Assembly: GCF_032854445.1 (NCBI RefSeq)
Contig: NC_088307.1
Coordinates: 5,270,001 to 5,334,000 of the forward strand
Length of the DNA stretch: 64,000 bases
Source of the DNA: Liolophura sinensis
Taxonomy: Eukaryota > Mollusca > Polyplacophora > Chitonida > Chitonidae
Reading direction: 5' to 3'
Part shown: piece after piece, positions 10,991 to 55,500 of the stretch
How the letters are laid out: every line of letters begins with the position of its first letter
Numbering within the stretch: position 1 is the first letter of the stretch
Made by a program: the position numbers and the translations under genes
The notes under the pieces: generated by a model
What the model was told of the DNA's origin: nothing
What the model saw: only the letters and a program-made list of their open reading frames with translations
The model's database searches: none

Positions 10991-11283
10991 ATGACTGGCT
11001 TTCTTGCCCCAGTGTTGCTTCTCGTATTTTACTCCTCTGCCGTTATCGCGGACTACCCTTTTCGAAACGCTTCCTTACCATGGCAGCAGCAGGTAGATAA
11101 CGTCGTAGGCCGTCTGACGCTACCAGAGATCCAAACTCAGCTGTCTAGTTGATAGGGTGCCGCCCCGCCGATAGAGCGTCTGGGAATACGGGAATACGCC
11201 TGGTGGCCCAACTGCGGTAGGGGGGATGTCGCACAGAACTCAACGGCCTTTCCACCGTTCATCGGCCTGGACGCTTCCTTTGA
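10991..11283 (+). pseudogene. First-exon copy 1 of the GH3 beta-xylosidase-like gene, disabled
   Basis: This 293-bp copy is co-linear with the exon at 12539-12831, starts with the same signal peptide (MTGFLAPVLLLVFYSSAVIA) and ends at the same donor phase. At codons 54 and 55 (11150-11155) it has TGA then TAG where the intact copy has GGA CAG. By eye I count eight base differences between the copies, seven of which change an amino acid or create a stop, a pattern expected of an exon no longer under constraint. It could still act as an untranslated first exon, or readthrough could occur, but a normal product is not expected. Confidence 0.85.
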
Positions 11284-11606: not shown

Positions 11607-12286
11607 TTATGAGCACAATGTAGAGCTATGTATAAGCACAATGTCGAGCTATGTATAAATACAATGTAGAGCTATGTATGTGCACAATGTGGAGTTTGCA
11701 TGAGCACAATGTAGAGCTATGTAGCACTATGTAGAGTTTAGTATGGACATGATGTAGAGCTATGTATGGACACAGTGCAAAGATATGTCTGAGCATAATG
11801 TAGAGCTCTGTATGAGCACAATGTAGAGCTATGTATGAGCACAATGTAGAGCTATGTTTGAGCACAACGTAGGGCGGGGTATGCGCATAATGTAGGGCTA
11901 TGTATGAACACAGTGTAAAGGTATGTATAAACACACTGTAGACCTATGAGCACAATGTAGACCTATGTATGAGCACAATGCAGAGCTATGTATGAGCACA
12001 ATGTAGCGCTAAGTATGAGCACAATGTAGGGCGAAGTATGAGTATAATGTAGAGCTATGTATGAACACAATGTAGAGTATGTATGAACACACTGTCGAAC
12101 TATGTTTGAGCACAATGTAGAGCTATGTATGAGTACAATGTAGAGCTATGTATGAGCACAATGTAGAGCTATATATAAGCACAATGTAGAGCTTTGTATG
12201 AGCACAATGTGGAGCTAAGTATCAGCACAATGTGGAGTTTGCATGAACACAATATAGAGCTAAGTATCAGCACAATGTAGAACTCT
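11607..12286. repeat. 23-bp minisatellite, first array
   Basis: About 28 copies of a 23-bp unit reading GAGCACAATGTAGAGCTATG plus TAT, with variants ending GTGGAGTTTGC. It lies in the intron after disabled exon copy 1 and belongs to the same family as the array at 13141-14640. Long minus-strand open frames across it are repeat artefacts. Confidence 0.95.
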
Positions 12287-12538: not shown

Positions 12539-12831
12539 ATGACTGGCTTTCTTGCCCCAGTGTTGCTTCTCGTATTTTACTCCTCTGCCGTTATCGCGGA
12601 CTACCCTTTTCGAAACGCTTCCTTACCATGGCAGCAGCGGGTAGATGACGTCGTAGGCCGTCTGACGCTACCAGAGATCCAAACTCAGCTGTCTAGCGGA
12701 CAGGGTGCCGCCCCGCCGATAGAGCGTCTGGGAATACGGGAATACGCCTGGTGGTCCAACTGCGGTAGGGGGGATGTCGCACAGAACTCAACGGCCTTTC
12801 CACAGTTCATCGGCCTGGGCGCTTCCTTTGA
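12539..12831 (+). CDS. Alternative first exon (copy 2) of the GH3 beta-xylosidase-like gene
   Basis: An open exon of 97 codons plus two bases. It encodes a signal peptide with a hydrophobic core (residues about 5-18, FLAPVLLLVFYSSAV), then DYPFRNASLPWQQRVDDVVG, the start of the GH3 N-terminal domain (motif GRLTLPEIQTQL). It ends at GA|GTAAGT, leaving phase 2, which fits exon 2 at 18123. It could be an alternative first exon with its own promoter, giving a different signal peptide and N-terminus from the exon at 16615, or the leftover of a partial gene duplication. Transcript data would decide. Confidence 0.75.
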
Positions 12832-13027
12832 GTAAGTTTAGAAATGCTGTTGTTTTCATACCTCTAAACTCAAAGATAAAAGGCAGCAAAATGAAACTTA
12901 TACAGGCAGAAAATTATTGAACTATTCATATAACCTGTCTACCTTTCTTACAACTGCCACAAACTTAATTTAAGTGGAAGAACTTGAGCTAAAATTATAT
13001 ATTGGGCAGTGATTTAAGTATCAATAC

Positions 13028-13141: not shown

Positions 13142-14640
13142 AATAAAGTATGAGCACAATGTAGAGCTATGTATAAGCACAATGTCGAGCTATGTATAAA
13201 TACAATGTAGAACTATGTATGAGCACAATGTGGAGTTTGCATGAGCACAATGTAGAGCGGGGTATGTGCATAATGTAAAGGTATCTATGAACACAATGTA
13301 GACCTATCTATGAGCAAAATGTAGAACTTTGTATGGACACAATGTAAAACTATGTATGAACAAAATGTTGACTTATGTTTGAGCACAATGTAGAGCTATG
13401 TATAAGTACAATGTAGGGCTATGTATGAGCACAATGTAGAGCTATGTATGGGCACAATGTAAAGCTATGTATGAGCACAATGTAGAGCTATGTATGAGCA
13501 CAATGTAGAGCTATGTATGAGCACAATGTGGAGCTATATATGAACACAGTGTAGGGCTATGTATGAGCACAATGTGGAGTTTGTATGAGCACAATGTAGA
13601 GCTATGTAGCGATATGTAGAGTTTAGTATGGACACAATGTAGAGCTATGTATGGACACAATATAGAGCTTTATATGGATGGAATCCAAAGCTTTGGATCA
13701 GCACAATGTAGGGGAAGTATGCGCATAATGTAGAGCTATGTATGAACACAATGTAAAGCTATGTATAAACACACTGTACACATATGTTTGAGCACAATGT
13801 AGAGCTAAATATGAGCACAATGTAGGGCGAAGTATGAGTATAATGTAGAGTTATGTATGAACACAATGTAGAGTATGTATGAACACACTGTTGAGCTATA
13901 TTTGAGCACAATGTAGACCTATGTATGAGTACAATGTAGAGCTATGTATGAGCACAATGTAGAGCTATATATAAGCACAATGTAGAGCTATGTATGTGCA
14001 CAATGTAAAGCTATGTATGTGCACAATGTGGAGATATGTATGAGCACAATGTAGAGCTATGTATGAGCACAATGTAGAGCTATGTATGAGCACAATGTAG
14101 AGCTATGTATGTGCACAATGTGGAGATATGTATGAGCACAATGTAGAGCTATGTATGTGCACAATGTGGAGATATGTATGAGCACAATGCAGAGCTATGT
14201 ATGTGCACAATGTGGAGATATGTATGAGCACAATGTAGAGCTATGTATGTGCACAATGTGGAGATATGTATGAGCACAATGTAGAGCTATGTATGAACAC
14301 AATGTAGAGCTATGTATGTGCACAATGTGGAGATATGTATGAGCACAATGTAGAGCTATGTATGTGCACAATGTGGAGATATGTATGAGCACAATGTAGA
14401 GCTATGTATGTGCACAATGTGGAGATATGTATGAGCACAATGTAGAGCTATGTATGTGCACAATGTGGAGATATGTATGAGCACAATGTAGAGCTATGTA
14501 TGTGCACAATGTAAAGCTATGTATGTGCACAATGTGGAGATATGTATGTGCACAATGTGGAGATATGTATGTGCACAATGTGGAGATATGTATGAGCACA
14601 ATGTAGAGCTATGTATGAACATCGGGGCTATGCATGAGTA
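13141..14640. repeat. 23-bp minisatellite, second array
   Basis: About 65 copies of the unit GAGCACAATGTAGAGCTATG plus TAT. From about 13990 to 14600 a two-unit higher-order repeat (46 bp) dominates: GAGCACAATGTAGAGCTATG alternates with GTGCACAATGTGGAGATATG, showing recent local expansion. Confidence 0.95.
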
Positions 14641-16614: not shown

Positions 16615-19600
16615 ATGGTGGGCTTTGGCCAGGTGTTGGTTGTAGCGTTTTTGACGCCCGCAGTCATTGCGGATTACCCTTTCCGAAACGCTTCGTTGCC
16701 ATGGCAACAGCGCGTGGAGGATTTGGTGGGTCGTCTGACGTTGGAGGAGATCCAGATGCAACTGACGAGCGGACAGGGCCCCGCTCCACCGATACAGCGT
16801 CTCGGCATACGGCAGTACGTTTGGTTGACCAACTGTGGTCGCGGGGACGTCTTTCAAAATGCCTCTGGCTTCCCACAATTTATTGGTTTGGGCGCTTCCT
16901 TCGAGTGAGTGGGAAAACGTTTAACTTCACTTCGTAGCAGACATGTATTTAAAGACTGTTTGGTTATACCGGCACAGAATCAATAGAATTTCAAGGGGGG
17001 GGAAAGTTAAAATGTTTCACTCGTGAAAGAACTTTTGAATGGTCACATGGCAAATATCTAGAGCCTATTGACATCTTGTCGTCTGCTTGATGACAGAGTA
17101 CTAGTGTACCTAAAGAGATACGGCGACCTCCGATCGTTTCCCATGTCTTTCGACAGATATTGTTCGAAAAATCTGCACATGGCAAAGACAGTACCAACAC
17201 ATGTGCGCTCAGTATGAATTTATTTTTCGACAAAGCCCTTACTGAAATGCTTTGTAGAAGAACAACAGACTTGACGCCCATGCAATCCACCAGGTTATAT
17301 CGACACCCTATTGGCCAGTACTTGTTAGAATAAATGAACAGACAATAGACAATCAATAGACAATGTTGCCGGATTTCAAACTGACGTATGCATTGTTCTT
17401 TTCTTTGAGATTGTTATATCACCTGATATGTCATATTTCTGTGACATTGTTGCGGTTTTCTGTTCCCTGCCGTCGTTACATTGTTCTATTCTTTGACATT
17501 ATTATATTTTTCTATGCTGAATGCGGCTTTGCTATACATTGTTCTGTTTTCTGACATGCCTGCAGTAATCAATTCTCTGACTTTGCTAAACTGTACTGTT
17601 TTATGACATGGCTACATTACTCAATTCTCCGACTTTGTTAGATTGCTCTGTATGTGTGTGCGACATCCCTTTGTTTTTTTTATTCTGTAGTTACATTTCA
17701 TAGTGTTCTCTTGTGCGACATATATTGTTATATTGTTGTGTTCTGTTAGATTGTTCTATCCACTGGCACTGTTATATTCTGTGCCACTGTCAAATTGCTC
17801 TATCCTGTATCGTTGTTGTTACATTGTTCTTTCTTGTATCGTTTTTATTACATTGTTCTTTCCTGTATCGTTGTTGTTACATTGTTCTTTCCTGTATCGT
17901 TGTTGTTCCATTGTTCTTTCCTGTATCGTTGTTGTTACATTGTTCCCCTAGTCCTTACAACCGTAAAGGAATGAACAAACTACGTTACTTTCAACCATGC
18001 GCAAGATGAAGACTTAAAAGACTGCTTTCAGAGAGAACGACTCATGCATGACACTTAGCAAACCGAAGTATTCGGAATTAAACACTGTTGTTTTCTTTGT
18101 TCTTTCTTTATACTCTTTTCAGTGCTGATCTCGTCCAGAGCATCGCTGAGGCGGCCAGTATCGAAGTTCGTGCTTACTACAACTACTTTATCAATCATAA
18201 CATTCCCCTAGACACCCACCGGGGTCTCAGCTGCTTCAGCCCCAACATGGACCTCTTCCGGGACCCCAGATGGGGTCGTGGTCAGGTAGGGGGACTTAAT
18301 ATTGATATGTTTTTACGATTCCAGGTGTACCACAACCTTTCACGAAGCACGCAATATTTTGTCGGGATGATTTTACGTTAACCTCTCGGTGCATACTTAT
18401 CAACCGTCTACACCACACGACCACGAGACCTCCAACAATAATCTATTAATGTGGCAAACATTCTTGGCGCGAAGAGTGGCAGGTGATTCGAAAAAAAACC
18501 CAACGAAAATATAGATTTTTCTCCCGAAAATCTGTAAGCTGAATAAAATAACAATTTCTGATTATTGTACAGAATCCACTGATGCAGTGCTTTTTTTCAA
18601 CTCTACTTATTTCTATAAATCTTGAATCCATGATCCTGTAAGAGGCAGGTCCCTTATTAGTAACATCGGTAGTATAGAATACAGAAAGGTTTTGTCATGG
18701 TTGAGCACAAGTTAAATTACACTGCAGTCAAGAGGAAAAACCGTGCTTCCAGTGAGTGAGTGCCTGGGGTTTAACGTCGTGCTCAACAATTTTTCAGTCA
18801 CATGGCGACGAAGGAATACCTAGGGTGTATGTAATGTGCCTCTTTGTTACAGAACGGATTTCCACCGCTCTTTTATCTAGTGCTGCTTTACTGAGACGAC
18901 TTACCGAAGGTAAGTAAGCCGCCCCGCCATAGTCATTATACTGATACGTGTTAACCAGTCATTGCACTATCCCCTTCATGCTGAACGCCAAGCGTGGAAG
19001 TTACAACTTCCTCTTTTAAAGTCTTAGGTGTGACTGGATCCAGGATTGACCCTGGATCTACCGCTCCCGAAGCAGACGCTCTACCATGGTTCGATATTTT
19101 AGACTACATTGACGTGTTTTATCTGTATGACTTTTGTCCATCATGGTTAACTGATGGTATATATATGAATGTTTCTTTCGACGCATAGGTTACCATGACG
19201 ACGTACTATATATATGCGTTCGCAAGGATCTCGCGCTGGCTCATTCGTTTAACGAACCTTGCTCGCTAAAGCAGACGACCTTGGACCAGTGGAGTTAAGT
19301 GTTCGAATTTGACTTACTTTAGCTCTGCCACGGCTTTACGTCTTTATGTTTGTTTGGTATACATGGTCAGGGGCAGTCGCTTAAGGTTCTGCCCTGTGCA
19401 TAACGCCACTAACTGTTCCCATAAAACTGACCGCAGAATTTCCGGTGAACTTGCTGACTACGATGCAAACTAGTAACCAAATGAATTACATTCTTTTTTA
19501 CATAATTACATTTAATTTAACACATCGAATCCTGTCACATTTTCCAGGAGACGTTTAGCGAAGATCCCTACCATGCCGGAGAACTTGGATTTCGTCACGT

Positions 19601-22600
19601 GAAAGGTCTCCATGGAAAACAACACGCGGTACTTGCGCAACAGTGCCGGATGTAAGCATTTTACCGTTTCCGGTGGACCTGAAAATATCCCTGTCTCCAG
19701 ACAAGTGTTTGATGCAAAGGTGACATGACTTTGAAAAGCAGCTCTCACTACTTTTTTAGTAACAGAACTATTTTATTGCATGTTAAATACACGAGATGAC
19801 CTCTTTTATTTGCACATGAACTTTCATATTTGTAACCAAACTAGGCCAAGACCCATATTTATCAAACGTCTTAAGACTTAAGGTAAAAATTTAAACACAG
19901 TTACGCTTAAAACAAGTACTTGCTCTACAAGTAAAAATTCATTTCAGTTTATTAATGAGCCCACAAGATATAGCAATGGAACTTCATATATTTTAGATTT
20001 AATCATAACAGCTAGTATCGGTTATGTAACTGAATATGGAGTAGCTTCGCCAATGGTCAATCTTGACCATTATTCTGTATATTGTAACTTAAATATTCTG
20101 GTAAATGATAAACCAAAAGCATATAAAAGAAACATATGGGATTTTAAATGTGCTGACTTAATACAGCTTCAGTCAATTATCTCTACCACTCCCTGGGAAG
20201 CATCATATTTGATGATATGGATGATAAACTGTGTGTTTGGAACAATCTTTTCTTATCTTGTTGTGCGGAAGCAATACCAAATAAGCAAGTAACAAAACGA
20301 CCAAGGGATAAACCATGGATGACAAATGATGTTCGTTATAAATTAAGAGTAAGAAATAGAAGTTTTACAAAATTTAAGAAGACTAAGTCAGAGGGAGACA
20401 GATTTCGTTTTTATATATCTAGGTGTGCAGCTATTACCACTACGAGAAAAGCAATATTAAAGATATGGTGAAAAACTAAATGGAAAACTTTCTAATCCCA
20501 ATTTACATGCCAAGTTTTATTGGTCTATAATGAAATCTCTACTGGGTTCAAAAGCGAAACCACCCCGTCCCTTCTTTAATCGTTAACGATAAAAATGTAT
20601 GAAGTGATACTGAAAAAGCTAATGAGTTCGTTAGGGTGTTTGTAAGCATTCAACTCTTCCGTTAGTAATACCAGTTTTACCTCCATTGACCTATTATATT
20701 GGTACACGCCTTAATTGTGTACAAGGAAGTGAAAGGGAAGTAGCTGATTTTCTGTCCAAACTAAACATTCGAAAGCTTCTGGTGCTGATGGAATTAGTAA
20801 TTTCATGCTCAAAACTACAGCGGAAAATATAGCACCTTACCTCACTAAAACTATTTCATTTCTCACTTCAGTCAGGAGTCTTTCCATCAACTTGGAAACT
20901 ATCTAGAAAAGGGCACGGAACAATGTACCAACAAAACCACACTATGAGGTGTTTTCTGTTCTGTGTTTGAGTTTATAAACACTTGCGTTTCGCGATTTAA
21001 GCCTTACGTTACATCGCCTTATCATTTTCAGGAATTTTTAGATATCCGTTAATGAGCGAGTCTTCAATACATACAGTTATTCATTTATTTATTTATCTGA
21101 TTGGTGATATGCCGTACTCGAGAATATTTCACTTAAACGACGGCGGCCAGCATTATAGTCGGAGGAAACCGGGCAGAGCCCAGGGGAATCCTACGACCAG
21201 CTGTAGTATACAGTTATTCAAAGTTTTACCACTAAACAAACAAACAGACTTTGAGTCTATGTTAATTACATGACAACATAGGTCAATTTTGTAAATTATG
21301 TAGGTATAGATATGAAGGACTATATCAGCCAATCATTGTCCAGGTGACGGAAAGAACATGGAGGACGTACTTCCTGCCGGCGTTCGGCGTTGTGTGGAGG
21401 CTGGAAGTCTCAGTTTGATTTGTGCTTACAACAGGTATGTGGGTGTCATGTATGGTGTCTTCTGCTTTCTGTGTCTTTGGTAATTATGCTCATGTGTGGG
21501 GGTGTCATGTACGGTGTTTTTACATGGTGTTACTTGGTAATTATATAGTTAGGTAGGGTGTCGTGTGTGGTGTCTTCTACATGTTGTGTCATTGGTAATT
21601 ATTATGTATATTCATGTAGAGTATCATGTGTCCTGTCTATTGCATGGTGTCTCATTGATAATTTTGTACTTGTGTCGGTCATGCGTGGTACTCCTTGCTT
21701 TGTTTTATGGCAACACAGCGTTTTGAGTTATTCCGGACTAATAACTTGTCGTCCTTCATAGTTATACATACACAGGTGCGCCCATCCCCACCCCCAACCC
21801 CCACCCTTCTCCCCCATACAACTAACAGGCATATATAAGTTGTTGTTTTTTAGTAAAGCGTTAAATAACAATTAAATCTAACTACATCAATCTTCAACTT
21901 ATGCTCGTCAGTTAGTTACTTGCCAAAGGTAGGTGGTTAACCTCGGCTACTCAGCTTTTCTCCACGTATAAAACTGACCGCCATATATATGTTAATTTGT
22001 TTGGCAAAGCTATAGGCAAAAATCAAATCCAATTACTTTTATCTCTCTAATACTGACAGCATTAACGGCGTTCCAGCGTGTGCTAACAAAAAGCTGCTCA
22101 CGGATATTCTTCGCGGCGAGTGGAACTTCACCGGGTACATCGCCGCAGACGCCGGCGAGCTGAGAAGAACCATCACCATCCATCACTACTACAACAACAC
22201 CTTGGACGCCGCCGTGGGCTGTCTGTCTGCAGGCTGTAACCTGGAGGTGGAGGGCTCTAACCAAAGAATATACTACTCACTGAGTAAGTTCTGGGAGGGT
22301 CAAACACCAGGATATGCTACTCACTGAGTAAGTTCTGGGAGGGTCAAATACCAGGATATGCTACTAACAGAGTAAGTGCTGGAAGGGCTCTAACCAAAGA
22401 ATATACTACTCACTGAGTAAGTTCTGGGAGGGTCAAACACCAGGATATGCTACTCACTGAGTAAGTTCTGGGAGGGTCAAACACCAGGATATACTACTCA
22501 CTGAGTAAGTCCTGGAAGGGCAGTACACCAGGATATGCTACTCACTGAGTAAGTGCTGGAAGGACAGTACACCAGGATATGCTACTCACTGAGTAAGTGC

Positions 22601-25600
22601 TGGGAGGGCCGTACACCAGGATATGCTACTCACTGAGTAAGTGCTGGGAGGGCCGTACACCTGGATATGCTGCTCACTAAGTGCTGGGAGGGCCGTACAC
22701 CAGGATATGCTACTCACTGAGTAAGTGCTGGAGGGCCGTACACCTGGATATGCTACTCACTGAGTAAATCCTGGGAGGACCGTACACCAGGATATGCTAC
22801 TCACTGAGTAAGTGTTGGGAGGGCCGTACACCTGGATATGCTACTCACTGAGTAAGTCCTGGGAGGACCGTACACCAGGATATGCTACTCACTGAGTAAG
22901 TGTTGGGAGGGCAGTACATCTGGATATGCTACTCACTGAGTAAGTCCTGGGAGGGCCGTACACCAAGATATACTACTCACTACTCACCATTGGTTCTCAT
23001 TTTCCAGTTCCCGCTATCCAGCAGGGCCGCCTGACGGAGCAGTTTGTCCGGGACAACATCAAGCCCATGTTCTACACCCGCCTGCGACTCGGAGAGTTCG
23101 ACCCTCCTCAAATGAATCCTTACAACTCGCTGGACGTTAAGGACGTCGTCCTGAGCTTATCACACAGACAACTCGCCGTGGAGGCGGCCATGAAGAGTTT
23201 CGTCCTTCTTAAAAACTTACAGGGTGGCCTCCCCTTCACACAAAACTTCCAGAAAATTTCGGTCAGTACCTTGTAAACACATTTCTTTATTTTCTTTGTT
23301 TCCCCGCAGAAATCTAAATGGTTTCCATAAAAACATTTACCATTTTCACCATTTCATCCAAGTCAAAATTTCAACTCCCAGTACCAAACACTAAATAGTG
23401 TGAGGAGATCAGAAAGAGCTTCACGAAGTATGCCCCAAGGACACATTTGCAACTATGTTTGCAATAGTGGCGCGTGATTTTACGATATCTTGCCATTGAT
23501 ACCACGCTACGTGCAAGGTCCAGCAACTTCGTAAAACGGGTCTCAGAAGATTTGTTGCGATTTGTTGAATATTACGTTCATCATTCAGCACCAAAACAAG
23601 GTTTACAATAAAAGATGGAATGCTGAAACACCTCAGCCGAATACACCAGACATGATGTTCTGTCCAGCCTTAGTAAACTTACGTCGAGTTATTTCCCTTA
23701 TACGAGGCAATATGAGTATCTCTGACTTCATGATAATTGTTTGAGAGACTCTTTGGACCTGCATTCGACTTTCGTATTTACGTTCATATAGGTATCCAAA
23801 CTATACTGACCCTTATAAACACATTTTGTTATTTGTTTCATTTTCTGTTGTCTGTAAAACGTTTATGCGTCCAAGTTAGTTCAGTATTGTAAACAGCGTC
23901 CATCGACAGTAGAAAGGATGAAGACGTTGTCTGTTGTGTGCTATCGTATGCTGTATAACCTATAGCATTTCCCTACTGAAATTTCAGTTTGACATCTTGG
24001 GTGTAACCCAAATCAGGATTTACGGAAATTTTTTGAGCAAGTTATATAGTTTTCCTTCGCGTACAATTCTCGCTATATTATAGGTTGCAATTGTATAATA
24101 AATAACACTATTATTCATTCGTCGCTTCAAGGATGACTCTGACAACTTCTCTGGGTGATTCGAGTTCAGTTCAAACAAAATGTAGCACATTTCGACCAAT
24201 GAATTGCCAGAGCGAATGATCTGTTGTGACCAATCAGAGAATCTGTCTTCACATGAACAGCTCCTTTCTACTTATCACTGCCCCCTTTTTTTACGTTATT
24301 CTGCTTATATCATGGTGCTAGGGGGCATGTAAATTGCTACTATTTATGCATTTAAATGAACAGTTAGAATAAAACCTTAACTGAGATAAATTGACAAGAG
24401 GCCGTATTTTACGTGTGACCATTTGCCAGCTATCACACTGTCGCCTCTTCCCCGGCTTTGCTCTCTATGCTGTACGTCTTAATTATATTGTAAATATTAA
24501 ATGTGATTACAAGACAGCATTTTGAGTTATTCAAGACCAGAGAGGTCTAATAACTAGCAATTCACATCACTACATTTTTTTACCTAATTCTGCCTAAGCC
24601 GTGGTGCTAGGAGGCGTGTAATTTGCTACTATTTATTCATTTACATGAACAGTTAAATTGACAAGGAACCATATTTCACCGGTTATGTGTTACCATTTGC
24701 CACCTGCCACGCTGTCGGCTGTGTCCGGGCTTTTCTCTCTCCGTGATGTACGTCTATAATTGTATTAAATATTTAACCATGTAGCTGCTAATTTCTTTAT
24801 CTTTTCAGACCGTATTATCTTTTTGGTTTTTGGTTTAAACATATGACTTCAACCTCAACGTCCTGATTCCAGGTGGTGGGCCCAATGGCGAACAATTCAG
24901 CGCAACTTTTTGGAGATTACACCTCTAAAACAGATCCTAAATTTACTAGCAATCCGCTTCAAGGACTCTCTGGGTTGGCGCCCAATGTCGCGTTCGCCGC
25001 TGGATGTAAAGACACGTTCTGCACGCGATATGACGCTGATGACGTCATTGTGGCGGTATCTGACACTCAGGCGGTCTTCATATGTTTAGGAACAGGTAGT
25101 TGGCATTGTTACGAAATGTATATATCATGATGTCACATAATGCAAACATTGCCTATGTAGCCTGATATTGAACGCATCCTGGACATTTCCATGCATATAA
25201 CCAATATATTCGATAAAATATAAAGTGTATTTATCGTTGTTTTACCATATAGTACACTTAATTGTATCTGCTCAAAACATTGTTGGACAAAAACATATAG
25301 GTGTGTTGTGCCTGGTTTTACATGTGTATTCTAGAGGTAAATGTCCGGTGTTGAGGGGGGGGGATTGTTCATGAGGGGGGAAATGTCCAACGGGGGGTCA
25401 ATGTCCTCTCTCTGATATTAATCAAAAAAGATACTTACATGTTAGCGGAGAAACTCTATGAAAATATTGGCAAAACAGGCTATATTTACATTCATGAAAT
25501 TTAATCCGTCAACAAGTGTCTACATCAATCCCTCGAAACATTAATTTTATTTCAGGCCAGGCCATCGAAGCGGAGGGAAACGACCGTAAGGACATTGAAC

Positions 25601-52520: not shown

Positions 52521-55500
52521 GTGAAATCGGTCTGCACCGCTGAATAAAATAGTATGGAAATATTTGATTATATAAAGCTCATACTCAAGGACGCCGGAAT
52601 AAACCTCCGACCTATGGCAAGTTACTGACGATTTTTTCCACGTTTGACGTAGTGATACTAGTATGTTCACCATATTGATGAAAGACCAGTGGTCTTTTAA
52701 CGGACATTACACTACACAAACGCCCACACGAGCGTCGCCGTATAAACTTAAAGTCACCCAGGCCCCATCAGCACTGAGAGCAGGGGCACCTACAAATCCC
52801 ATGACGGAAGCTGAAATTGAACTCATACCTTGTGTGTCGCAGAGACTGACAGACAAGTGCCTTAACTATACTCAAAAATATATAAAAACGCAGGAAGCGA
52901 TTTTCTATTGTTTTCTCTGTCCTAAATAACGTGTTAACTCAATAATTAGGGTAAATGATTATTATCAGTTGTGGCTTCTGATTTTCATATTGTAGGATAA
53001 TAATTCTGGAGATACGGCAGCGCGAAAACAGAGTGGTCGGTAATCACATTTCACTGCACTCAGTACCCAGTGTGTCCACTTAAGTAAAAACTTCAAACCC
53101 TCATAAAACTGTTGTTTCTTATGTAACAAAGTCAAAACATTACTTGGCAACGTAAGTTCTGGGTAAGTTATTGTGCAACAGTTTTCAGCCAATTATAACG
53201 GACAGGAACATACGAGATATAACGGTTAAGGTCTGTTAGCAACCTGCGGCTGGTTGTGGGTTTCCCCCGGACTCTACCGGATTTATTCCCACTATAATGC
53301 TGGCCGCTGTCGTATAAGTGCAATGTACAAGTACGTTGTAAAATACAAATCAAATCAAATAAATATAAAAATTTAATGCTTGAAGTTTCGAGTTCGAACT
53401 CTTTTATCGCTAAAGATAAAAAAAGACCTTCTGTATCATGAGACTTGTTAAAAATGTTAGGCAACTATTGCAGGATCACATTTACTATAACATAGGGGTC
53501 TGAAAAAAAGTTTCACAAGAAGTCATTTAGATTAGTCAAACGATGGAGAAAATTGTGGAGCTGACTTGAGAAGTTTCTAAAGGAAAGGGTTGTCATATGT
53601 GCCTTTCGAACACAGTGAGACAATTGATCGGTAAATCTATGCCTTCAAAGGTTCAAAACTTGCGGACGGTCGTGGGTTTCCGCCGGGCTCTGCCCGGTTT
53701 CTTCCCACCATAATGCTGGCCGCCGTCGTTTGCGTGAAATATGCTTAAGTACGGCGTAAAACACCAATCAAATAAATAAATAAAGCAAGGTTCAAACATT
53801 TTTCACAAGTCACATGATACAGGAAGACTATTTTTACCTTCAACGACAAAAGAGTTTAAACTCGAAACTCCCCGAACATGTCGGCGTGGGGTTTTTTGGC
53901 GTTTAGATACACTTTTTATGAAAATATAAAGAAAAACTGTAAGAATATGTTTTATTGTCTTAGTGTATCGCTTCAGGGTCTCATACGTGTATTTGTTCAG
54001 GCTATTTATCTTGTTACCGTGTCGAAATTGTCGAGCACGTATTGACTTGACAGATTTAATTGACAGATTTGTAAAGAACTTATAGAGGAGTCAGAAGACA
54101 CCGGCACGAAGCTAAAATTCGTCTCAATCCTACTGAGGAACGCACAGAGTCTGCGATTGGTCAAAATGAAAATCCTACAAGAGTTCTCTCAAAAGAGTAC
54201 GTCCTTCTCCATTGTTGACTTCCAAGACGATATAGAATGGATACTGAAGAGTCAAAAAAAGACATACTTCATGGTTTTGTTTAACGACTGTGACCAGATG
54301 ACCTCGACAAATTCTTTGAGAACAGCTTTCTTGGAAATAATTTACGCCTTAGTCACTTTCCCAAGAGTTAAAGTCATCATCACAAGTCGGGTTCAGTTTT
54401 CGTTACCAAGAATTAACGGTAGTTTTCAGAAAACTTGCCGCTTAAAAGGTTTGGAAGACGAAGAAGCTATGGAACTTCTGTCGCAAGTAGCTCCCAACGT
54501 GGATTTCACATCCCACTACGAGGTCATACTGGACATATGCTGTCGCCTTCCCCTTCTACTGATTATCGTGGGCCAAAAATTAGAGGAAAAACGCCACATG
54601 CTCTCCGTCAAGGAACTTTGCGATTTTTGGGAGACGTCGCCTCTGGAGGGATTAAGCGCAGACTTTGGTTCGGATGAAGACAACATCAAGAAAATCATAG
54701 CGAAGTTCGTGGCCTCACTTGACAATTGCCTTCAGAAATTCCTCTCCGTATTTGCATATTTTCCCGGTACGTTCAGTGCGGACGCCGCCGCTTACGTCGC
54801 CGCCTTACCGAAGGTGTCCCATGCTAAGGTGCTGGCGCTGATCCCTCTAAATGATACATCGGCTATCGAGTATGACAAGGGGCGCTACTCTATCTTGCCC
54901 GTTATCAGACGCCATGCCAACGAAAATCTGACGCACCTCAGAGACACAGACAGCGTTCGACACCGGTTTTGCCATTTCTTCAGCAAATTGCTGACCAAGG
55001 CAAACGCTGATCTTGTCCGCCGGTCTACCGACGCCGTCTTTGGCCAGGTCTTTGAGGAATGGGTGAACGTAGAGAAGGTGTTACGCGAAGGCGCCTTGCC
55101 CACAGCTGACCTTTTCAGGGTCAACATGGAGGTAAATACATGCACCCTTAATCTTTCCATGTGCTTGTCCTTTTGCGTTGTTTTAATGTATTTGTATGTT
55201 CAATGTGATGACAATACTTCTAGTACTTCCTGTTGGGACGTGTTGCTACTATATAAGCATTTACATGAACAGTTAGAATACAAACTTAACTATGGTAAAC
55301 TGACAAAAGGCTGTATTTCACCGGTTACGTGTGACCATTTGCCAAGCATTGCAAACTATTATTTACTTGTTTATTTGATAGTTGCTTAACGGTGTATACT
55401 CAGGAGAGTCGGAGCTCAACAAGTTTGTTCATTTCATGAGTCTAGTGCAAGGTTTGAGAATGACCCAGACAAACACGTCAATTTCTTGTCTGTGGGTTTC

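Follow-up and report, generated by a model that had tools for sequence, protein, structure and literature searches.

What happens when an intron offers the splicing machinery its own 5' splice site over and over, and how does such an intron arise? The question is raised by intron 5 of a plus-strand gene for a beta-xylosidase-like glycoside hydrolase 3 (GH3) enzyme in a 64-kb stretch of molluscan DNA (hereafter the window, C13:5270001-5334000, from a genome assembly of 609 Mb in 632 contigs). A sequence-only reading had taken this intron to be a minisatellite made of copies of its own donor, and our analysis bears this out: Tandem Repeats Finder (TRF) places an array at 22268-22981, and its first copy, copy 0, is the end of exon 5. 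We propose that the array is a boundary-spanning minisatellite, or "mirage," tolerated as a by-product of a duplication across the exon/intron boundary and spliced at the exon-proximal donor, and we assign this explanation a probability of roughly 0.78.

Structure of the array

The features on which the argument depends are as follows.

22060..22283, plus strand: exon 5 of the GH3 gene, ending in phase 1 (CTG A/), its start set from the frame and an AG
22249..22293 (45 bp), plus strand: copy 0, made up of 35 bp from the end of exon 5 and the 10 bp that open intron 5; the authentic donor GTAAGT lies at 22284
22268..22981, plus strand: 44-bp minisatellite across the exon 5/intron 5 boundary (TRF, 16.3 copies, 87% matches, score 1025)
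22284..23007, plus strand: intron 5 (724 bp), occupied almost wholly by the array, starting with GTAAGT and ending in TTTTCCAG
22647..22686, plus strand: copy u9, donor lost by deletion
22730..22773, plus strand: copy u11, donor GTAAAT
23008..23261, plus strand: exon 6, its 3' end provisionally set from a GT

Exon 5, which terminates at 22283 in ...TACTCACTGA, matches PF00933 over 22061-22282 (42 bits against a cut-off of 27), and when it is joined to exon 6, solved GH3 enzymes are matched across the junction. The count of about 16 units of about 44 bp given by the earlier reading agrees with the TRF copy number and period. When the copies are delimited by cutting at the GGAGGG-like motif, copy 0 is followed by 15 full intronic copies of 40 to 46 bp (44 bp in 9 of the 15) and a partial terminal copy at 22950-22981; the final 26 bp of the intron lie outside the array. 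Each unit had been described as the "last bases" of exon 5 plus GTAAGT, which is right for the donor but understates the exon, from which about 34 of the 44 bp derive.

Intact GTAAGT occurs 14 times, at 22284, 22328, 22372, 22417, 22461, 22505, and 22549 and then at 22593, 22637, 22721, 22808, 22852, 22896, and 22940; the context is TGA/GTAAGT at 13 of these donors and AGA/GTAAGT at 22372. In the 64-kb window TGAGTAAGT is found on the plus strand only, at the 13 TGA/GTAAGT places and at 11281 and 12829, and because it is so nearly confined to the array, the repetition of the donor word there is not due to chance. An 88-base query against the whole genome, in a search that skips very common words, returned eight matches, all at this locus. 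The array thus has three properties of a mirage: it is a head-to-tail repeat of minisatellite scale (44 bp x 16.3), its unit straddles the exon/intron boundary with the exon end as first copy, and the splice signal is retained in many copies (14 intact, 2 broken).

In the window as a whole, about 30 distinct tandem arrays (merged from 44 TRF rows) occupy about 22% of the sequence. The GH3 gene has a second copy of its first exon at 12539-12832, about 4 kb upstream of its own first exon (16615-16905), flanked by near-identical 23-bp minisatellites at 11608-12281 and 13148-14618; neither first exon, searched alone, gave a Pfam match.

Origin and growth of the array

A protein search of the genome gave 25 GH3 exon matches, 2 of them from this gene itself. 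At none of the 12 paralog loci submitted to TRF does an array lie at the exon 5/intron 5 junction, and one paralog (L033) has a 31-bp array within its intron, distant from the exon. The intron occupies the identical place in 10 of the 11 paralogs read, L010 alone being without it, and in 7 of the 10 (L023, L024, L026, L027, L028, L029, and L031) both of its ends are in phase 1; L025 and L032 have a phase 1 donor with the acceptor not placed, and in L033 the exon match contains a stop and the intron ends disagree in phase. Since paralogs without a boundary array have the intron in common, the intron is old and the array grew in it later.

Growth would have begun when about 45 bp across the donor of exon 5 were duplicated in tandem in this old intron, an event possibly mediated by the pair of GGAGGG motifs at 22249 and 22294, 45 bp apart, of which the second may itself be a copy. 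By eye, the exon end of the C7 paralog has the same length as that of this exon between conserved residues, which makes the 45-bp form of the exon look ancestral and the 44-bp form of the array look derived. Further copies would fall within the intron for as long as the exon-proximal donor was used and would therefore be nearly neutral, and the array may have expanded by unequal exchange or slippage, in blocks, with the real exon end recopied once. Traces of such blocks are as follows.

22251..22348, plus strand: 98-bp block, first of two exact copies, across the end of exon 5
22384..22481, plus strand: second copy of the 98-bp block, 133 bp downstream
22381..22426, plus strand: copy u3, resembling the exon, with 98% identity to copy 0
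22774..22949, plus strand: 3' part of the array with an 88-bp higher-order period (u12 and u14 100% identical, u13 and u15 95%)

Copies u4 and u1 are also identical. The unit that had been singled out earlier as carrying more exon sequence is u3; the extra likeness is real, but the unit is part of the larger duplicated block, and the resemblance of u3 to copy 0, together with the 98-bp exact repeat, indicates that the intron received a copied block that included the exon end. This copying was probably recent, and the exactness of the internal duplication suggests recent turnover. Variation in array length between alleles, as expected of a minisatellite, is plausible.

Consequences of the extra donors

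An in silico junction from the authentic donor at 22284 to exon 6 keeps the frame, and the corresponding junction from any of the 13 downstream donors leads through 14 extra residues to one and the same stop.

22325..22327, plus strand: in-frame TGA met via any of the 13 downstream donors (open frame 22016-22327)

Occasional use of a downstream donor would accordingly yield a transcript with a premature stop, a likely substrate for nonsense-mediated decay.

Similar arrays elsewhere in the genome

The genome was searched for patterns of three donor words at a set period, with the reversed word as a control; the counts are dominated by long arrays. Three AGGTAAGT words at a period of 16 to 46 bases gave 482 matches (258 for the reversed word), and AGGTGAGT at a period of 28 to 58 gave 1277 (507 reversed). 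The first 10.45 Mb of contig C1 hold 14 AGGTGAGT arrays, 12 of them at 4.1-7.0 Mb, against 5 reversed-word arrays, a count that omits one array holding both words. The arrays examined are among the matches listed, all on C1, and comprise 27 donor-word arrays (13 AGGTAAGT and 14 AGGTGAGT); the array start was not reached for L040 and L065. Peptides from 19 of the 27, selected by visual inspection of the open frames at the first donor, were scanned against Pfam, and the other 8 had no frame judged worth scanning (L037, L040, L055, L065, L076, L078, L079, and L081).

Firm exon homology at the array start was found for 7 of the 27. It reaches the donor in genes for GH31 and RNA polymerase III RPC1 and in arrays at exons encoding ankyrin repeats, an SNF2-related domain, an iron-hydrogenase-like protein, and 2-oxoglutarate dehydrogenase, and it ends 13 residues before the donor in a core-2/I-branching enzyme (PF02485).

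C1:26351900-26354400: L064, GH31 (PF01055), 39-bp boundary array of 19 copies
C1:14889112-14889553 and beyond: L063, RPC1, exon end 44 bp x ~39
C1:4179500-4181800 and C1:4191800-4193800: L074 and L075, on the same strand about 12 kb apart, boundary arrays at SNF2-domain and HEAT-like exons

Both L074 and L075 look like BTAF1, and they may be one gene with two boundary arrays. Homology is weak at two arrays (deoC, E 0.0023, and a HEAT repeat below the cut-off), and the deoC-like peptide had no match among solved structures. Three more (L067, L068, and L086) look coding from the reading frame alone: none has a Pfam match, L067 and L068 have none in NCBIfam either, and L067 matched the PDB only at chance level. 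L085 has a coding-like exon that may or may not belong with the array, an array in a fucosidase gene (L082) was excluded with only 3 shared exon bases, and no exon was recognised at the remaining donor-word arrays. The copies match 16 to 47 exon-end bases at the twelve other mirage-like loci and 30 to 47 at the seven firm ones.

Recognisable exon homology was absent from all 13 reversed-word control arrays, which were scanned less thoroughly than the donor arrays: one edge per array was read, the scan took in the longest open frame from each of 7 (trimmed in one case to the last 80 of 104 residues), the other 6 had no open frame longer than 17 residues, and one control (L095) contains donor-like words, so that the comparison is not even-handed. 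When 26 of the 27 donor arrays were compared with the 13 controls, the donor arrays had the longer open frames through the array start (Mann-Whitney p 0.007), in a test in which the starts of L042, L063, and L040 were misplaced, lowering the values for L042 and L063.

Across 13 loci (this one, the 7 firm, the 2 weak, and the 3 recognised by frame), 109 of the 120 downstream consensus donor words in the sequence examined lead first to a stop; 4 shift the frame only, and 7, including 5 in the GH31 gene, stay open. The exon's own donor is GTAAAT in RPC1 and GTATGT in GH31, and many of the copies read GTAAGT, in part a result of searching for GTAAGT; to judge by these motifs, the RPC1 exon donor looks weaker than many of its copies. 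A wider generalization is offered tentatively, and we hold it to be doubtful: minisatellites in this mollusc might be born preferentially at exon/intron boundaries, and the spliceosome might reliably take the exon-proximal donor even where it looks the weaker. By extrapolation, dozens to hundreds of genes, housekeeping genes included, would then carry rows of donors.

Alternative explanations

Several points weigh against the explanation that we prefer. Splicing at 22284 is what the cell most likely does, but we infer this choice of donor from sequence, and in vitro splicing with all sites strong favours intron-proximal donors. The donor word of this array, GAGTAAGT, showed no genome-wide array excess in the pattern search (308 matches against 427 for the reversed word). 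Furthermore, the frame switches within 19540-19730 in exon 3 and within 21330-21440 in exon 4, as assembled, and this GH3 copy may be a pseudogene, or the assembly may contain indels, in which case splicing constraint is perhaps absent here. The structural claim is independent of these points, whereas the claim about splicing depends on them.

The frame switches in exons 3 and 4, of the sort left by long-read indels or pseudogenisation, favour the alternative that survives best, namely, that the repeat was collapsed or expanded in assembly or that the gene is dead and its splicing irrelevant. We judge this unlikely: the copies differ from one another and have an ordered block history, unexpected of an artefact, the same architecture recurs in conserved genes such as those for RPC1 and 2-oxoglutarate dehydrogenase, and in a dead gene the structure would remain regardless.

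Boundary-spanning duplication with a tolerated array is also preferable to a regulatory role, in which competing donors would send a copy-number-dependent share of transcripts to decay, as a decoy or poison exon does. Such tuning of expression would be served by 14 intact donors, with every downstream isoform a candidate for decay, but we consider it improbable. The donor nonamer ranks only 17th of 46 9-base windows in conservation between copies, so that the donor columns are conserved no more than other parts of the unit and give no sign of selection keeping the copied donors, and two copies have a broken donor. Predicted pairing is similar at all 14 donors, the mean unpaired probability being 0.17 at the authentic donor and 0.12 to 0.26 at the 13 copies. 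The array is predicted to fold more strongly than shuffled sequence (z -4.8, 60 shuffles), but folding of equal strength is reached by a tiled shuffled unit in 25% of 150 trials and, in a repeat, in 35% of 40. Neither the conservation rank nor the modelled pairing points to a decoy role. We likewise rejected the idea that RNA structure hides the extra donors, given that the authentic donor is predicted to be paired like its copies and that the folding energy is matched by tiled shuffled units at those frequencies.

Alternative splicing was suggested by the earlier reading, and its use for variant proteins would draw on 13 intact downstream donors, on a precedent in human IFI6 (PMC4526556), and on the separate GH31 array, which has an open, in-frame continuation at 5 of its 13 downstream donors and where comparable isoforms are possible on the evidence of the reading frame. 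In the GH3 gene, however, such use finds no support and is very improbable, all 13 donors running into one stop and the usual spacing of 44 bp not being a multiple of 3. That the intron itself was born when an AG/GT proto-splice site was duplicated in tandem, as proposed for amphioxus globins (PMC3087553), can be dismissed almost outright in view of the 10 GH3 paralogs that share the intron's place without a boundary array, 7 of them with phase 1 at both ends, so that the intron is not absent from relatives.

Other features of the window and genome

An open frame of 441 amino acids at 54064-55389 resembles by eye part of a putative NB-ARC/NACHT-type ATPase. Elsewhere, the genome has eight tandem Haemocyan_bet_s (PF14830) domains, a molluscan family; none of 14 control genomes has them, and all 14 PDB matches of one such domain are named haemocyanin. 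On these grounds we take the genome to be that of a mollusc and rejected amphioxus, suggested by the mirage precedent, as its source.

Comparison with known systems

It has long been asked how the spliceosome selects one of several equal donors that compete with one another, and the usual tests have relied on a few artificial copies. Natural rows of near-identical donors, mostly productive at the first only, would make a genome such as this a ready test of a positional rule. In human IFI6 (6-16, G1P3), a minisatellite reportedly described by Turri et al. in 1995 gives multiple splice donors placed at the exon end, and the present array is like it in presenting tandem donors. In IFI6, two downstream units are reported to be used, and three mRNA species result (PMC4526556). 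Our locus is unlike that productive system in that each downstream donor meets a stop and none would yield a productive variant.

Intron gain by tandem duplication, reported for potato RdRp (PMC4974935) and Drosophila (PMC2891723), likewise involves duplication of splice signals, but here the intron is an old one that paralogs share. In abalone, an intron of a TSSK gene contains a 27-bp minisatellite that is polymorphic and is not described as touching an exon in the text at hand (PMC6905558). In earthworms, the metallothionein genes are reported to have minisatellites in their introns, along with duplications of exon 4 that are absent from transcripts (PMC12783039). No molluscan mirage was recognised in the literature searched, which is weak evidence of absence, subscription papers having lain mostly outside the search.

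The closest parallel is provided by the mirages of amphioxus (Adh3, troponin C, globins BflGb6 and BflGb9, and PGBD5), in which normal splicing is reported to be undisturbed and length to vary (PMC3087553, PMC3902484). As in those genes, copies of an exon/intron boundary are arranged in a tandem, minisatellite-like array and many keep the splice signal (AG/GT in amphioxus), a likeness that for our locus holds at the level of DNA. Unlike the amphioxus cases, the array described here is in a mollusc, presents 14 intact donors in one intron, and is accompanied by several more such loci in the same genome. Boundary-spanning minisatellites would then not be peculiar to amphioxus.

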